Positions 12,780 through 41,830 of a DNA stretch of 64,000 bases are shown here, one piece after another. The stretch is from Pseudomonas sp. J452 (GTDB lineage: Bacteria; Pseudomonadota; Gammaproteobacteria; Pseudomonadales; Pseudomonadaceae). The stretch spans positions 4,278,001-4,342,000 of the forward strand of contig NZ_CP088294.1 in the NCBI RefSeq assembly GCF_024666525.1, given 5' to 3'. The position numbers and the translations under genes were made by a program. Position 1 is the stretch's first letter; each line of letters starts with the position of its first letter. The notes under the pieces were generated by a model, which saw nothing but the letters and a program-made list of their open reading frames with translations, did no database searches and was not told the origin of the DNA.

Positions 12780-12879
12780 GGCGCTCCTGCTGGCAGGCGG
12801 AAAAGGCCGCGTAGCTCAGCACGGGCGGCCACCCCGGTCAACCGCGGTTGACCTGCACCCGGTCGCTGCGTAGCCTTCC

Positions 12880-13056
12880 ACCCTTTCGAGGTTCTGCACC
12901 CACGCGGGTGCAGCTAAGAGGGAACAGGGTCAACGCCCTGGCTGCCCCCGCAACTGTGAACGGTTCAAGCCCCTTCGATACACCACTGCCAACGGCGGGA
13001 AGGTGAAGGGAGCGTGCCCAGCGCACACCGTGAGCCAGGAGACCTGCCTCGACTAA
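12880..13056 (+). promoter_or_regulatory. Cobalamin (B12) riboswitch upstream of cobW-cobN
   Basis: The stretch holds the conserved AdoCbl aptamer core in order: AAGAGGGAACAGGGT (12915 onward), CTGCCCCCGCAACTGTGA, a GCCACTG-like block with GGGAAGG, and the B12 box GAGCCAGGAGACCTGCC ending near 13048. The first stem (CTGCACCC/GGGTGCAG) is well formed. The aptamer ends about 110 bp before the cobW start, enough room for an expression platform. It should lower cobW/cobN expression when cobalamin is abundant. Confidence 0.93.
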
Positions 13057-13164
13057 CCAGCTAACTGTCCGGGCGGGGTGATCCGGTGGTGCAAGGCCCG
13101 CGTCCGCCCGGACACCGGCCTGCCCCTGCCCGTCCGTCTCTTTTTCGACGCTCCGGGGCCCTCC

Positions 13165-20825: not shown

Positions 20826-21211
20826 GATCGACGGTGGACAAGCAGAGCGTTGTCCTCCTACCCACGATCCAACCCGCGCAGGCTGGATGGCAACCCCGTG
20901 GAAAACTGCGCAGCGTTTTCCACCCTGGTTGCCTAGGCTACTTGCTGGTTACGACCCAATCGGCCTTTTAGAACTGGAAGAAACCGCCCCAAAGCGGCCG
21001 GGCGCGATAGGCGGGAATCGGCCAAAAGCAGGCCATGGACACGCGGCTAGCGACTTCGTAATCTCCGCGCAGACCATGTCGCTTTTTCTCCCCGCCTCAT
21101 GTTGCGTTTCCAGCGCGTCTTGCAAGCTGCTGAAGGAGTTATCCATGTACAAGGAACGTCATACGCCACAAAGAGCGCACCGCATTACGCCACTTGTGGC
21201 GTCTACTTATA
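20826..21211. other. Non-coding gap between cobF and the cassette array
   Basis: I see no convincing gene in these 386 bp. At 20889-20933 there is a large nested hairpin: GGCAACC...GGTTGCC outside and GTGGAAAAC/GTTTTCCAC inside. It is probably the end of the cobF transcript and also a repeat of Pseudomonas type. Next to the first cassette boundary is a CGCCACTTGTGGCG palindrome (near 21188-21201). No integron integrase gene is present here. Confidence 0.7.
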
Positions 21212-21243
21212 GTTAGGCTCACAGAGGCAGAGGTCATAGCAGG

Positions 21244-21441
21244 ATGCATCCAGACCTAAAATCCCTAATAAGCAAGGGGCGATCCCAAGGCTTCCTACTG
21301 AAGTCTGAAGTCCTAGAAATATTGCCTGAAGACATCACACAAGAAGAGCTTATCAATGACATATTGCTGATGATCAGCGATATGGGTATCTCTATAGTCA
21401 ATGATCAAGCGAGCGCTAACAATGGACACCCAGAAGCCTAA
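21244..21441 (+). CDS. Cassette 1: stand-alone sigma-70 region 1.1-like protein
   Basis: 65 residues that align end to end with region 1.1 of RpoD-type sigma factors. LKSLISKGRSQGFL matches the first helices, LPEDIT matches the conserved LPEDI block, and DILLMISDMGI matches the DII-MINDMGI block. No other sigma region is present. In whole sigma factors this acidic domain occupies the DNA channel of RNA polymerase and blocks DNA binding by free sigma. A free copy could bind polymerase or mimic DNA, which is inference. It starts 26 bp after the first GTTAGGC boundary and ends inside the cassette before attC1. Confidence 0.85.
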   Translation: MHPDLKSLISKGRSQGFLLKSEVLEILPEDITQEELINDILLMISDMGISIVNDQASANNGHPEA

Positions 21442-21512
21442 CAAATGATTCAAGCCGTTCGCTTCTCTCACTCGGGGCTGGCTAAAGCCGGCCCCTTAGC
21501 CAAACGTTAGGC
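21436..21512 (+). repeat. attC site 1
   Basis: Runs from GCCTAAC to GTTAGGC, 77 bp, with inner complementary arms around a GGCTGGCTAAAGCCGGCC core. Confidence 0.93.
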
Positions 21513-21520
21513 GTAAACAA

Positions 21521-21811
21521 ATGAAATCGCCTTTTAAAGCCACTTTCTTTGCCTTTGCAGCGTGCATTTCTGCAGAAGCTATTCCCGCAAGCTCACTACC
21601 TGGGGTGGACAGCGTTCAAGAGCATGAAATTATCGGCCTTGGCACCGTGCGCATAGGGCAAGAGCTCACCCATGCAAAGTTCGGCGTTGGGAAAGTTGAA
21701 GAGATCCAACCAGGAGAAGAAGGCATCACGGTTATAAACATAACCTTCCCTTCTGTTGGCTCAAAATGGCTTATTGCAGAGCATGCGAATTTAAAGCAGG
21801 TCACCGAGTGA
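21521..21811 (+). CDS. Cassette 2: UvrD/PcrA C-terminal (Tudor-like) domain protein with a signal-like N-terminus
   Basis: 96 residues. Residues about 45-94 match the C-terminal domain of UvrD/PcrA helicases: RIGQELTHAKFGVGKV, then SKWLIAEHANLKQV, which parallels the UvrD pattern G-K-H-AKFG-G-V ... G-KWL-A-YA-L. In PcrA/UvrD this domain is known to contact RNA polymerase. The first 24 residues look like a cleavable signal peptide (Lys, then FFAFAAC, then AEA), which would place the domain outside the cytoplasm. A GTG at 21604 would give a cytoplasmic form, so the start is unresolved. Confidence 0.75.
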   Translation: MKSPFKATFFAFAACISAEAIPASSLPGVDSVQEHEIIGLGTVRIGQELTHAKFGVGKVEEIQPGEEGITVINITFPSVGSKWLIAEHANLKQVTE

Positions 21812-21814
21812 GCC

Positions 21815-21890
21815 GCCTAACAAATGGTTCAAGTCACTCGCTTCGCTCGTTCGGGACCGCGTTCCGCGGCCCCTTAACCAAACGTTAGGC
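21815..21890 (+). repeat. attC site 2
   Basis: GCCTAAC to GTTAGGC, 76 bp, closely similar to sites 1 and 4. Confidence 0.93.
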
Positions 21891-21913: not shown

Positions 21914-22465
21914 ATGGATCATCTACGTTTACGCTTGATGCATAGGGAAGCCATAAGAAGGCTTTCCGACGCGCAAATCTTAGTGGAAGCTGATCCACTT
22001 GGGTCTAGGCGCGCTGATTCAGACCATTTGCTCAAACTGCTCGGATTGGAGCTACTTCTCAAGTTTCTGTTTGAAATTGAGCAATCACGACAAGCAGATG
22101 AATTCGGCCATGACTACAAAGCCATCTTCTCCGCTCTTCAACCAGAAACCCAAGCGCGGCTGATATCGCTTTGCGGCGAGCGCATAGGGCCATCGGCCTT
22201 CACTGCAGAGTCAACAAAAACCCTTGCTGAATGGGGTCGGAATTTCGTTGGTTTGAGGTATCCGTTTGAGCGCTACAAGGGGTTGTCCGAGGAGCAGTAC
22301 GCGGCAACATCCGCGCGCTGGCTTCAAAAGGGTGCAAAGCTGGAAAGCGCTACTTTTCGGTTCTACCCACAAGAGTTGACTGGAGCGCTGTATGCATTGC
22401 AAACCATCGCCAACGAACACGCTCTCCAAATCTTTGGCGAAGAGTTCATCCATGACATCATCTGA
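21914..22465 (+). CDS. Cassette 3: hypothetical protein, possibly HEPN-like
   Basis: 183 residues, largely alpha-helical. A segment LLKLLGLELLLKFLFEI followed by GHDYKAIF resembles the helix pair and the GHDL motif of HEPN-type proteins (residues about 38-75). A later RNFVGLRYPFERY block lacks the classical RX4-6H RNase motif, so enzymatic activity is doubtful. Nothing else is recognised. It begins 23 bp after attC2. Confidence 0.6.
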   Translation: MDHLRLRLMHREAIRRLSDAQILVEADPLGSRRADSDHLLKLLGLELLLKFLFEIEQSRQADEFGHDYKAIFSALQPETQARLISLCGERIGPSAFTAESTKTLAEWGRNFVGLRYPFERYKGLSEEQYAATSARWLQKGAKLESATFRFYPQELTGALYALQTIANEHALQIFGEEFIHDII

Positions 22466-22498: not shown

Positions 22499-22564
22499 GC
22501 CTAACTGGTCATTGCACACGGACGCCCATGCTTCGCATGGCGCTGGTGAACTTGGGCGTTAGGC
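22499..22564 (+). repeat. attC site 3 (divergent type)
   Basis: GCCTAAC to GTTAGGC, 66 bp, with an inner CCCATGCTTCGCATGG hairpin. Only the outer boxes match the neighbouring sites, so this cassette probably came from another lineage. Confidence 0.9.
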
Positions 22565-22670: not shown

Positions 22671-23375
22671 ATGCGCCACTATATATTATTACTTCTTTTA
22701 ATTCTTTGCTCGGGCTGCATTCCAACCAAACAAATAATACCCAGCGACGATGGAGGGCGATTCGTTTTAGAAGAGGATATTTTCGAATTTTATGAAGGAC
22801 CATTCGGCGATCGATTTCTAGCAGGCCTTACCAAAGGCGAATATATAGCTATCGGCCATGACGAAGATGGCGTCTATTATCGCGGCCCACATAAATGTCT
22901 AGTATTTCTCAACGAGGAGCAAGGCTATCACTTTCTCGCCACTGGAGAGCGTCCAGGAACGCTGAGCAACCCCAGAGCAATTAATTTATTTACTGGGGAT
23001 GAGGGCGGCGTCTTTGTTCCATATGATTTCGAGGATGATGACCCGTGGTACTTTCATTATGCTGATTATCGAAATGCCACAGGAGATGCTGACTCAAAAA
23101 TCCCCCCGAGGCCCGCATCAAGTATAAATAAGCCAGAGCCGGAAACCACACCGGCCGCGGCAGTTTACATGCTACCCAATGTAAAAATAATTAACGGCGA
23201 CGACCCCAATGCTCTGCCACCGGCTGAAGCTGTTGTCGGCGGAGCAATAGGAGTGGTAGCCGGACGACAATTGGGATTGGCTGGACTCCGAGATGCGCAA
23301 GGCGGAATACTGCCTGGTGTAATGGTTAAAAGTGTGAAAGTTTTGGCAATCATACGCAACCTAAAAACACGCTGA
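22671..23375 (+). CDS. Cassette 4: hypothetical lipoprotein
   Basis: 234 residues. A short signal peptide with lipobox LCSGC (Cys16) suggests a membrane-anchored lipoprotein. A strongly acidic, aromatic-rich domain follows (about 25-145), then a Pro-rich linker (about 143-165). A small C-terminal segment contains VVGGAIGVVAGRQLG, which could be a glycine-zipper-like helix. No family is recognised. The leader between attC3 and the start is unusually long (106 bp) and AT-rich, and might hold a promoter. Confidence 0.6.
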   Translation: MRHYILLLLLILCSGCIPTKQIIPSDDGGRFVLEEDIFEFYEGPFGDRFLAGLTKGEYIAIGHDEDGVYYRGPHKCLVFLNEEQGYHFLATGERPGTLSNPRAINLFTGDEGGVFVPYDFEDDDPWYFHYADYRNATGDADSKIPPRPASSINKPEPETTPAAAVYMLPNVKIINGDDPNALPPAEAVVGGAIGVVAGRQLGLAGLRDAQGGILPGVMVKSVKVLAIIRNLKTR

Positions 23376-23384
23376 TGTGGCGCG

Positions 23385-23461
23385 GCCTAACAAATGGTTC
23401 AAGCCGTTCGCTTCGCTCACTCGGGACCGGCTAAAGCCGGCCCCTTAACCAAACGTTAGGA
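23385..23461 (+). repeat. attC site 4
   Basis: GCCTAAC to GTTAGGA, 77 bp, nearly the same as attC1. Confidence 0.92.
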
Positions 23462-23470
23462 GAAAGCCAC

Positions 23471-24370
23471 ATGCCTGAAAACGGTATTCGTAGCACATAC
23501 TCTCAATCTCCATTTCAGATTTTTATGTGCGATGACGCTGGCGTCATATCAACAGGTAGTGCATTTTTCTATGAATATGGGGAAGAATGGTTCCTTATTA
23601 CTAATTGGCATAATTTCAGTGGTCGGCACTTTTTGACGAGAGCTCCACTTAGCGATCCCTCAAGGTTTCCTACATATATTAAGGTGAAGTTATCCACCTA
23701 CATTGACGGGGATAAATTCACAACTACTGCGCAACAGGTTGATATTTACAAAGATTACGAACCATGCTGGTATCAACACCCTAAGTTAGGCCATACATGT
23801 GATGTGGTTGCCCTTCCTTTAAATAGGCCGAAAAGCTGTCCAGAATTCATGCATAACGCGGCCAACTGCATCAGTAAAATAAAAATCCCTGTAAAACCTG
23901 GCTGTACAGCGTTCATTATTGGATTCCCTCACTCCTTAAGTGTTGGATTTGGTCTGCCGCTGTGGAAATCTGGTTATATTGCCTCAGAGCCACATTACGA
24001 TATTGAAATAGGTGGAAGTCTTTCAGAAATTGCAGGGACTCAAGGCGGCACCAAATTGCCGGCGTTCTTTATCGACTCCCTAACTAGGTCGGGAATGTCT
24101 GGCTCCCCAGTTTTCGCTGCGTACACTGGAAACTGGGACTCATCAGATCCATACAAAGAATTGAATATGGATGACCCAAATTTTTGGAGTCGAGATGACG
24201 TCTTACTCGGTGAAAATCGGATGCAATTTATCGGCTGCTACAGCGGCAGAGTTGGAAGGGAAGAGGAAGGCGCGGCATTGGGCCTCTGTTGGCGAGAAGA
24301 CGTTATTCAAGAGATATGTAAATCTCGCAATATTGGCGAGCATCCACAAATAACGTCTAGTAACTCCTAA
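23471..24370 (+). CDS. Cassette 5: trypsin-like serine peptidase
   Basis: 299 residues without a signal peptide. A chymotrypsin-fold triad is visible: His in TNWHNFSG (about residue 50), Asp in CDVVALPL (about 113), and Ser in SGMSGSPVF (about 214). The Asp lies in DVVALPL, as in HtrA-like and cytoplasmic trypsin-domain proteins. It is probably an intracellular protease; bacterial trypsin-like proteases of this type occur in some defence modules, but no partner is present here. The stop codon lies inside the R'' box of attC5. Confidence 0.78.
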   Translation: MPENGIRSTYSQSPFQIFMCDDAGVISTGSAFFYEYGEEWFLITNWHNFSGRHFLTRAPLSDPSRFPTYIKVKLSTYIDGDKFTTTAQQVDIYKDYEPCWYQHPKLGHTCDVVALPLNRPKSCPEFMHNAANCISKIKIPVKPGCTAFIIGFPHSLSVGFGLPLWKSGYIASEPHYDIEIGGSLSEIAGTQGGTKLPAFFIDSLTRSGMSGSPVFAAYTGNWDSSDPYKELNMDDPNFWSRDDVLLGENRMQFIGCYSGRVGREEEGAALGLCWREDVIQEICKSRNIGEHPQITSSNS

Positions 24371-24440
24371 CAATTCGCTCAAAGCGCTCACTTCGCTCGC
24401 AGGGAGCGGCGAAGCCGGCCCCTTAGCTTAATCGTTAGCT
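24365..24440 (+). repeat. attC site 5
   Basis: TCCTAAC to GTTAGCT, 76 bp. The TAA of the upstream protease gene is part of the first box. Confidence 0.9.
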
Positions 24441-24456
24441 TCTATGGACATACGTC

Positions 24457-25296
24457 ATGTTATTTTCTAAGCGAAAAGGATTATCACCGGTTAAAGATAA
24501 AATCCAGAAAGATGGCATGGACGATGCACTAAGGCATGGACTCTGGAACGCATTACATCTGTGCATATGGGAAAAAATTGAATACAACCCTTACGACACT
24601 TCATTTCGCAACACCAATCTATATGAGCTATTCCAAAACTACTGGCATAATTTATTTAAGTTTCCACTAGACAACTTACCTAGCTATTTTGAGGAAGCGC
24701 ATAAGCGAATTCGAAAGTATTTTTTCGAATGCCAGTGGCATGAAGCTTACGATCTCATTGAGTTTACAGCACAAGTGTCCCCCAAAGATCTCAAAGATCA
24801 GTACGTAAATTTTTGCAACCACATACTTGAAAAAGAGCTTTCTGCCTATAGATTTATTGACCTACAGCTTACAGATATTACCAGTGAGGAAGAGATTGAA
24901 AGCATAGAAACAGCCATCAACGCTACGACCAAGTACACCGGAGCCAATAAACACCTCCGAACATCCTTGAACTTCCTCTCCGATCGCAAGTCGCCCGACT
25001 TTAGGAACTCCATTAAAGAGTCAATAAGCGCAGTAGAGTCGCTGTGCGCCTCTATATCCGGCGACCCCAAAGCAACGCTTGGTGCTGCATTAAACACAAT
25101 AGAACGCTCGCATCAGTTGCACCCTGCATTCAAGAAAGCGCTGTCTAGCTTGTATGGATACACAAGCGACTCCAATGGAATTCGCCATGCTCTGCTGGAA
25201 GAGAGCTCTATAAGCTATAGTGACGCAAAATTCATGCTTGTTGCGTGCAGTGCATTCGTAAACTATGTATTAGGCAAGGCCAGTGAAAAAAGCTAA
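24457..25296 (+). CDS. Cassette 6: AbiJ-like abortive infection protein (AbiJ-NTD4 plus HEPN-like C-terminus)
   Basis: 279 residues. The N-terminus FSKRKGLSPVKDKIQ, followed by MDDALRHGLWNAL, fits the AbiJ N-terminal domain 4 pattern. The C-terminal part GIRHALLEESSISYSDAKFML, with ACSAFVNYV after it, fits the HEPN-like domain of AbiJ proteins, where RH supplies the likely catalytic pair. Members are predicted phage-defence proteins that act by RNA cleavage and growth arrest. Activity here is inference from domain layout. It ends inside a shortened attC site. Confidence 0.75.
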   Translation: MLFSKRKGLSPVKDKIQKDGMDDALRHGLWNALHLCIWEKIEYNPYDTSFRNTNLYELFQNYWHNLFKFPLDNLPSYFEEAHKRIRKYFFECQWHEAYDLIEFTAQVSPKDLKDQYVNFCNHILEKELSAYRFIDLQLTDITSEEEIESIETAINATTKYTGANKHLRTSLNFLSDRKSPDFRNSIKESISAVESLCASISGDPKATLGAALNTIERSHQLHPAFKKALSSLYGYTSDSNGIRHALLEESSISYSDAKFMLVACSAFVNYVLGKASEKS

Positions 25297-25357
25297 AAAA
25301 GCGCTAACTTCGCTCACTGAGACCGGCGAAGCCTGCCCCTTAGCTTAATCGTTAGAC
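25292..25357 (+). repeat. attC site 6, with an internal deletion
   Basis: The right half matches attC5 up to GTTAGAC, but about 10 bp between the CTAA of the first box and AAAGCGCT are missing. The stop codon of the AbiJ-like gene falls in what remains of the first box. The site may recombine poorly. Confidence 0.75.
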
Positions 25358-25382
25358 GAAAACAGAACATACGGAGCTATAC

Positions 25383-41519: not shown

Positions 41520-41569
41520 AGACAGGGATTCCTTGGCATCGGTACACCCCGCCCGATGTTGGCACTCGC

Positions 41570-41750
41570 GACTAGCGTCGTCGGCAGGTCTCCTGGCTGG
41601 CAGGTCGGCATCGGTCGCGGCCTTCCCGGTTTCCCAGTGGCATTCAGGCGACAGACTCGCTGCTTACAGTTGCGGGGGCAGCCACGGTTGAATCGCTTCT
41701 CCGTGTTCCCTCTTAGGCCCTTGGTGACGTCCGTGAGAACGCCGGGCACC
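41570..41750 (-). promoter_or_regulatory. Cobalamin (B12) riboswitch upstream of cobG-cobH-cobI-cobJ
   Basis: Read on the minus strand it contains CTAAGAGGGAACACGG, GGCTGCCCCCGCAACTGT, CCACTGGGAAACCGGGAAGG and the B12 box AGCCAGGAGACCTGCC (complement of 41583-41598). Order and spacing match the AdoCbl aptamer. The cobG start follows about 50-100 nt later, suggesting translational control. It is the second B12 aptamer of the window. Confidence 0.93.
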
Positions 41751-41830
41751 GACGAAGGCGCTATTATGCCCGCTTTTTCCGGCGCCAGGCCAAGCCCACG
41801 CGTCGCCCGCAACAGATCAAGGAAACACGC

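Follow-up and report, generated by a model that had tools for sequence, protein, structure and literature searches.

We analysed a window of 64,000 nt (the whole stretch of DNA considered here, C1:4278001-4342000) from the 4.86-Mb one-contig genome of Pseudomonas sp. J452, in which an integron cassette carries a gene for a free-standing copy of sigma-70 region 1.1. The gene is an open reading frame on the forward strand (21244-21441) that runs from ATG to TAA and encodes a 65-residue protein, MHPDLKSLISKGRSQGFLLKSEVLEILPEDITQEELINDILLMISDMGISIVNDQASANNGHPEA. At least six cassettes follow an attI-like site here, and the one with this gene comes first.

A Pfam profile search of the protein returned Sigma70_r1_1 (PF03979) at E 2.2e-15 and 56.8 bits against a curated cut-off of 22.5, with residues 4-59 aligned to profile positions 6-61 of 81. 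No other Pfam family was listed at E <= 10, although the HMMER filters discard most matches above E ~0.1; regions 1.2-4, which bind core polymerase and promoter, are absent, PF03979 being the sole Pfam family, and the protein is not a group 1 sigma factor. The best NCBIfam RpoD model reached 35.2 bits, the cut-off being 555. A sequence search against solved structures (E <= 10) gave 20 distinct sequences, all of RpoD or SigA, 18 of them at E < 0.001, with about 40 bits to E. coli sigma70. In the structure model the protein is predicted to adopt the region 1.1 fold, and its last four residues have a predicted local distance difference test (pLDDT) score under 50. Elsewhere in the same genome PF03979 matched only RpoD itself (616-residue frame, C1:604905).

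A preliminary description of this DNA had proposed a region 1.1 protein with no other sigma domain, carried by an integron cassette. The significant profile match and the lack of further listed families bear out the domain assignment, and the attC site at 21436-21512 together with GTTAGGC cores on both sides bears out the cassette. The same description spoke of an end-to-end alignment that finishes at DMGI, which was too strong: the alignment stops at profile position 61 of 81, the acidic follow-on stretch is absent, and DMGI occupies residues 46-49, with 16 more residues after it.

The cassette holds a single gene with attC at its end, between cores of the form GTTRRRY; the core sites of this attC are GCCTAAC and GTTAGGC, and the left boundary is the GTTAGGC at 21212-21218. 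To the left of the cassette, 21074-21215 is 76% identical to C1:4537554-4537696, a stretch directly beside the only intI of the genome (C1:4536595-4537539; 525 bits, the only one of eight matches over the family cut-off), which lies about 237 kb from the array, and over a longer stretch the region is 85% identical to a copy at C1:4729388. Since this flank aligns to the stretch beside intI, we read it as an attI-like site without integrase, and a secondary (attG) site as left boundary was dropped on the same ground. The best tblastn match to IntI in the window had E 0.052, and a complete integron, with intI beside attI, is not present at the array. A strict attC pattern found 14 sites in the genome (3 and 5 matches in controls with the pattern read backwards), spread over four places, one of them holding just one site, near intI. 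Away from the only intI there are three attI-like sites (21074-21212, C1:4729388-4729584 and C1:2176404-2176474), the first two of which stand immediately before attC sites, and further copies occur in two other Pseudomonas genomes, G118 and G148. It may be that a single integrase acts in trans on several attI platforms.

The cassette protein was found in 3 of 388 genomes of the genus, namely its own, G118 and G148; these three were also the ones that stood out when 199 genomes were searched for the PF03979 family. A GTDB species-contig scan, which may leave out the record of the window itself, gave P. guryensis SR9 (G118; 100%), Pseudomonas sp. BMS12 (G148; 98%) and Pseudomonas sp. F(2018) (95%), so that four copies could be compared. 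The upstream flanks differ at all four loci; downstream, a tudor-domain cassette is common to the window and SR9, and BMS12 and F(2018) each have something different. The same cassette is therefore found in different cassette neighbourhoods. Between the window and BMS12 there are 9 silent changes and 1 replacement over 42.8 and 152.2 sites (Fisher p 5e-6, computed with rounded site numbers), and the comparison with F(2018) is less lopsided, with 4 silent changes and 3 replacements; over the four copies, 10 of the 14 variable codons vary silently only. The G+C content is 43% for the gene, 47% for the whole array and 63% for the window. Judged by composition and substitution pattern, the gene looks foreign, like its array neighbours, and is maintained as a protein. 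Each of the four copies also has AGAGG, a likely ribosome-binding site, 9 or 10 nt upstream of its ATG.

Free copies were also sought outside the genus. Among 390 genomes of the order there were five matches at E <= 1e-11, comprising the present protein, three RpoD (frames of 610-627 residues) and one free copy, a 62-residue protein with 54% identity in a genome of another family (G215, L049:4989-5177). The latter sits in a close-packed gene run with gaps of 37 and 29 bp, in which an attC cannot fit. It lies downstream of what we take to be a sohB-like gene and upstream of a presumed wax-ester-synthase-like gene. A search of 369 genomes of the class with P0007 as query (E <= 1e-12) listed, besides the cassette, only matches in frames of at least 455 residues, and 398 genomes of the phylum gave no further match at E <= 1e-11; more distant free copies would be missed at the thresholds used for order, class and phylum. 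A protein database search found 115 proteins, of which 107 carry the RpoD motif ND.LP, and those inspected among the 107 resemble RpoD pieces cut by contig ends or frame-shifted. The remainder comprised four proteins of the free type (P0001, P0002, P0005 and P0007), one possible member (P0115) and three odd RpoD-like sequences; P0002 comes from a 1437-bp contig that bears the label Salmonella, perhaps wrongly.

Phage origin and plasmid spread were both rejected on the following searches. In viral_contigs, scans that depend on exact matches of short peptides found no relative, whether the query was the single protein or alignment A1; the phage collection gave nine records, all below 60% identity (seven annotated as sigma factor or rpoD, two unannotated), and the best viral-model match had E 0.51. 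Plasmid records numbered 71, all below 60% identity, and the 20 that were listed comprise 11 with the annotation rpoD and 9 for which no gene is given. E. coli genomes gave no match at megablast sensitivity.

To place the free proteins beside RpoD, we used 25 RpoD domains, consisting of 24 of 27 fetched loci and E. coli. The loci came from similarity searches, and the rows were picked by a motif including 'ND', which could favour the contrast, although the same motif was found in all 27 loci tried and thus excluded none of them. Nineteen columns constant in at least 90% of the RpoD rows are kept in all six free proteins; another seven of equal constancy have been lost from every one of them: E14, Y20, N24, D25, H26, I41 and E53. 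Four of the seven fall within model helix 20-26, the second helix. The RpoD-constant helix TYAEVNDH is therefore not retained, positions 20, 24, 25 and 26 being lost in every free row and E22 kept. As four of the six rows are near-identical cassette copies, these amount to about three independent lineages. In a tree over 52 columns the free proteins stand apart from RpoD (support 93/90, 94% of bootstrap trees), and with so few columns this evidence is weak. Net charge is -6 over residues 4-56 of the cassette protein and -7 over residues 9-60 of the host RpoD; for whole free proteins it is -7 (P0001), -4 (P0002), -6 (P0007) and -1 (P0005).

The behaviour of region 1.1 is described in several papers, of which excerpts are cited here. 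It is a DNA mimic in the downstream DNA channel of RNA polymerase and must leave for the open complex to form (PMC4598750; PMC7822876). Upon its removal, thrABC transcription rose about 32-fold and basal rrnB P1 transcription hardly changed (PMC6970531), and the life of the rrnB P1 complex went from 34 to 115 s (PMC7822876). Isolated region 1.1 of P. aeruginosa sigma-A bound core polymerase with a dissociation constant of 220 nM, that of sigma-S barely detectably (PMC9300723), and isolated E. coli region 1.1 added in trans made Gp2 fully inhibitory again for holoenzyme without region 1.1, and brought the sigma-38 holoenzyme under Gp2 inhibition as well (PMC3778932). This published behaviour leads us to expect a free region 1.1 to bind those forms of polymerase whose channel is empty. 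The reading that we favour, tentatively and at a little below an even chance, is that the cassette protein is a free region 1.1 which binds the downstream DNA channel and acts as a DNA-mimicking brake on open-complex formation. Working in trans, it would occupy the channel mainly of polymerases that leave it unfilled, i.e. core, the sigma-S holoenzyme and alternative-sigma holoenzymes without region 1.1; competition with DNA would then lower open-complex formation or non-specific binding of core to DNA, and the balance among sigma factors would shift as a consequence. The rewritten second helix might tune affinity or release, and the first place behind the attI-like site would favour expression. 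It is plausible, by analogy with the isolated domains, that the protein inhibits or retunes transcription, as was first suggested. The wider idea, that a mobile and detachable sigma module plugs alternative-sigma polymerases in trans so that one cassette resets sigma competition and global transcription, is possible but rather doubtful.

Several points weigh against the channel brake. The main warning is the rewritten second helix, in which residue 20 changes from Y to K in all six free proteins and NDH at 24-26 becomes L/V, E/K and I/Y, and the residues lost there may be those that touch polymerase. The acidic stretch that follows region 1.1 in the host RpoD is absent from the 65-residue protein, and acidity is not constant among the free copies. 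Local concentration favours the tethered domain within the sigma70 holoenzyme, and the excerpted sigma-38 result of PMC3778932 was obtained in a condition with Gp2. The structure model rests on an alignment of mostly RpoD pieces, so the match in fold does not count as evidence separate from the family match. Moreover, a scan between 20820 and the gene gave no promoter-like site.

In a rival reading the region 1.1 fold has been repurposed: with its second helix changed, the free domain would bind another partner (another protein, itself or nucleic acid) instead of the polymerase channel. The loss in all six free proteins of seven positions otherwise constant in at least 90% of the 25 RpoD rows, four of them in 20-26, the turn of N to L and H to I in the cassette protein, by which two positions become hydrophobic, and the separate position in the tree (93/90) all favour this view; but the remaining scaffold is kept, the cassette protein is acidic and the 52-column tree is weak, and we consider such a repurposing unlikely. 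Another proposal is that the domain binds RpoD rather than polymerase, for example a sigma whose own region 1.1 is missing or displaced, and in trans masks the regions with which that sigma binds DNA. Region 1.1 reportedly holds free sigma in a compact form with its DNA-binding parts hidden (PMC4598750), yet the masking described in that excerpt is intra-chain, and nothing in the present results points to sigma over polymerase as target; we give this proposal very little credence.

A role against phages, in which the protein alters the action on polymerase of inhibitors that use region 1.1, such as T7 Gp2, either as a decoy or as a shut-off enforcer, seems to us improbable. Gp2 does act through region 1.1 in the excerpt of PMC3778932 and the array also holds a PDC-S32/AbiJ_NTD4 candidate defence gene, but cassette neighbours are shuffled, so that a location shared with that gene says little, and the protein had no PADLOC match at E <= 0.01 (0 families). 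The earlier suggestion of resistance to a phage protein has no direct support here: with E. coli parts in vitro, isolated region 1.1 in trans strengthened the inhibition by Gp2 of polymerase lacking region 1.1 (PMC3778932, as excerpted), the reverse of what a protective decoy would do, which disfavours a plain decoy. Least probable of all is a non-functional RpoD fragment captured in a cassette. The small size, the low prevalence (3/388) and the small silent excess against F(2018) would suit it, but silent changes prevail both against BMS12 and over the four copies, and all four have a complete frame with AGAGG before ATG. A G+C of 43% in a window of 63% also argues against recent derivation from the host rpoD, although G+C is low throughout the array; a broken rpoD piece was rejected on the silent-change excess, the four intact copies and this composition.

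The features of the array are collected in Table 1. The tudor cassette protein has, by reading, a signal-like N-terminus before its PcrA/UvrD tudor domain, and the copy of this cassette in L034/L037 is open as a 67-residue frame only. The PcrA/UvrD tudor domain and region 1.1 are both polymerase-binding domains, but a theme common to the two cassettes was considered and is not claimed, the tudor protein starting signal-like. Elsewhere in the window, cobalamin riboswitches lie at 12872-13065 (+) and 41566-41768 (-), and the genes ahead of the array are, from reading their frames, presumably cobalamin synthesis genes. A short repeat at ~20898-20924 recurs in many matching genomes of the genus, and we take it to resemble a repetitive extragenic palindromic (REP)-type element.

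Table 1. Features of the cassette array, in positions of the window
Feature	Position	Strand	Basis or remark
attI-like site without adjoining integrase gene	21074..21212	+	alignment to stretch beside intI
Integron cassette of 294 bp with the gene for the free region 1.1	21213..21506	+	GTTAGGC at 21212 and 21506
AGAGG, likely ribosome-binding site	21229..21233	+	10 nt before ATG; sequence reading
Coding sequence, stand-alone sigma-70 region 1.1 protein, 65 residues	21244..21441	+	
attC of region 1.1 cassette	21436..21512	+	77 bp, matching 7-base cores, strong fold
Second cassette: 96-residue protein, PcrA/UvrD tudor domain	21521..21811	+	PF21196 26.6 bits, cut-off 23.9
attC of second cassette	21815..21890	+	attC pattern
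Third cassette: 183-residue protein, no family match	21914..22465	+	Pfam, NCBIfam, PADLOC scans
attC of third cassette	22499..22564	+	attC pattern
Fourth cassette: 234-residue protein, no family match	22671..23375	+	Pfam, NCBIfam, PADLOC scans
attC of fourth cassette, poorer core	23385..23460	+	blastn to sites beside intI, up to 98.7%
Fifth cassette: 299-residue protein	23471..24370	+	weak PDC-S45 E 2.9e-6; Trypsin_2 25.1 bits, below cut-off 27.6
attC of fifth cassette, degenerate core	24366..24438	+	blastn to sites beside intI
Sixth cassette: 279-residue PDC-S32/AbiJ_NTD4 candidate phage-defence protein	24457..25296	+	PDLC04997 E 6.7e-117; PF18863 E 4.5e-37
Shortened attC-like site, apparent end of recognisable array	25302..25357	+	blastn 25308-25365; cores read

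To our knowledge, the only region 1.1 described from nature is the gatekeeper built into sigma factors, and a full-text literature search, with coverage that leaves out most subscription papers, found no natural free-standing copy. The cassette protein is a real, maintained and mobile stand-alone region 1.1, for which a channel-plug mechanism is plausible by analogy. Should the wider idea of a mobile sigma module hold, no free-standing region 1.1 would be known from nature before this one, and Proteobacteria would have a counterpart of the delta subunit. With the free copy mobile and under protein-level selection, the channel plug would become a separate, swappable part that cells can acquire. 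Moreover, it would offer a natural reagent for the standing question of how region 1.1 acts when untied from sigma-70 and for the question whether an outside plug controls alternative-sigma polymerases, and the control of polymerase would join the roles that integron cassettes, most of them unexplained, may have.

Compared with region 1.1 of RpoD (PF03979), the cassette protein belongs to the same family, has the same predicted fold, keeps the scaffold residues and is 43-48% identical to the RpoD sequences that the plasmid search listed; it differs in standing alone with 65 residues, without regions 1.2-4, on an integron cassette, and in having a largely rewritten second helix and no acidic following segment. 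The delta subunit (RpoE) of Gram-positive RNA polymerase is likewise a small separate protein; it binds polymerase, as is predicted for the cassette protein, and has a folded N-terminal domain. We take it to be kin to region 1.1, but it belongs to another phylum, and the cassette protein lacks an acidic tail. The HARE-HTH family was not listed for the 65-residue protein at Pfam E <= 10 and no delta-subunit chain was among the structural matches listed, with which kinship is still compatible. T7 Ocr and SPO1 Gp44, DNA-mimic inhibitors of RNA polymerase, share the proposed replacement of DNA on polymerase, but they are phage proteins to which no family link was found here, whereas the cassette protein is a sigma-factor domain. 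The isolated sigma-A region 1.1 of P. aeruginosa or E. coli is also free and acts or binds in trans in the excerpted experiments (PMC9300723; PMC3778932), but it is laboratory-made, whereas the cassette carries a natural, diverged free copy. SutA of P. aeruginosa, a small accessory protein, tunes transcription by sigma-S in Pseudomonas, as is proposed for the cassette protein; as excerpted, however, SutA opens the beta lobe and activates, whereas region 1.1 restrains the lobe and fills the channel (PMC9300723).
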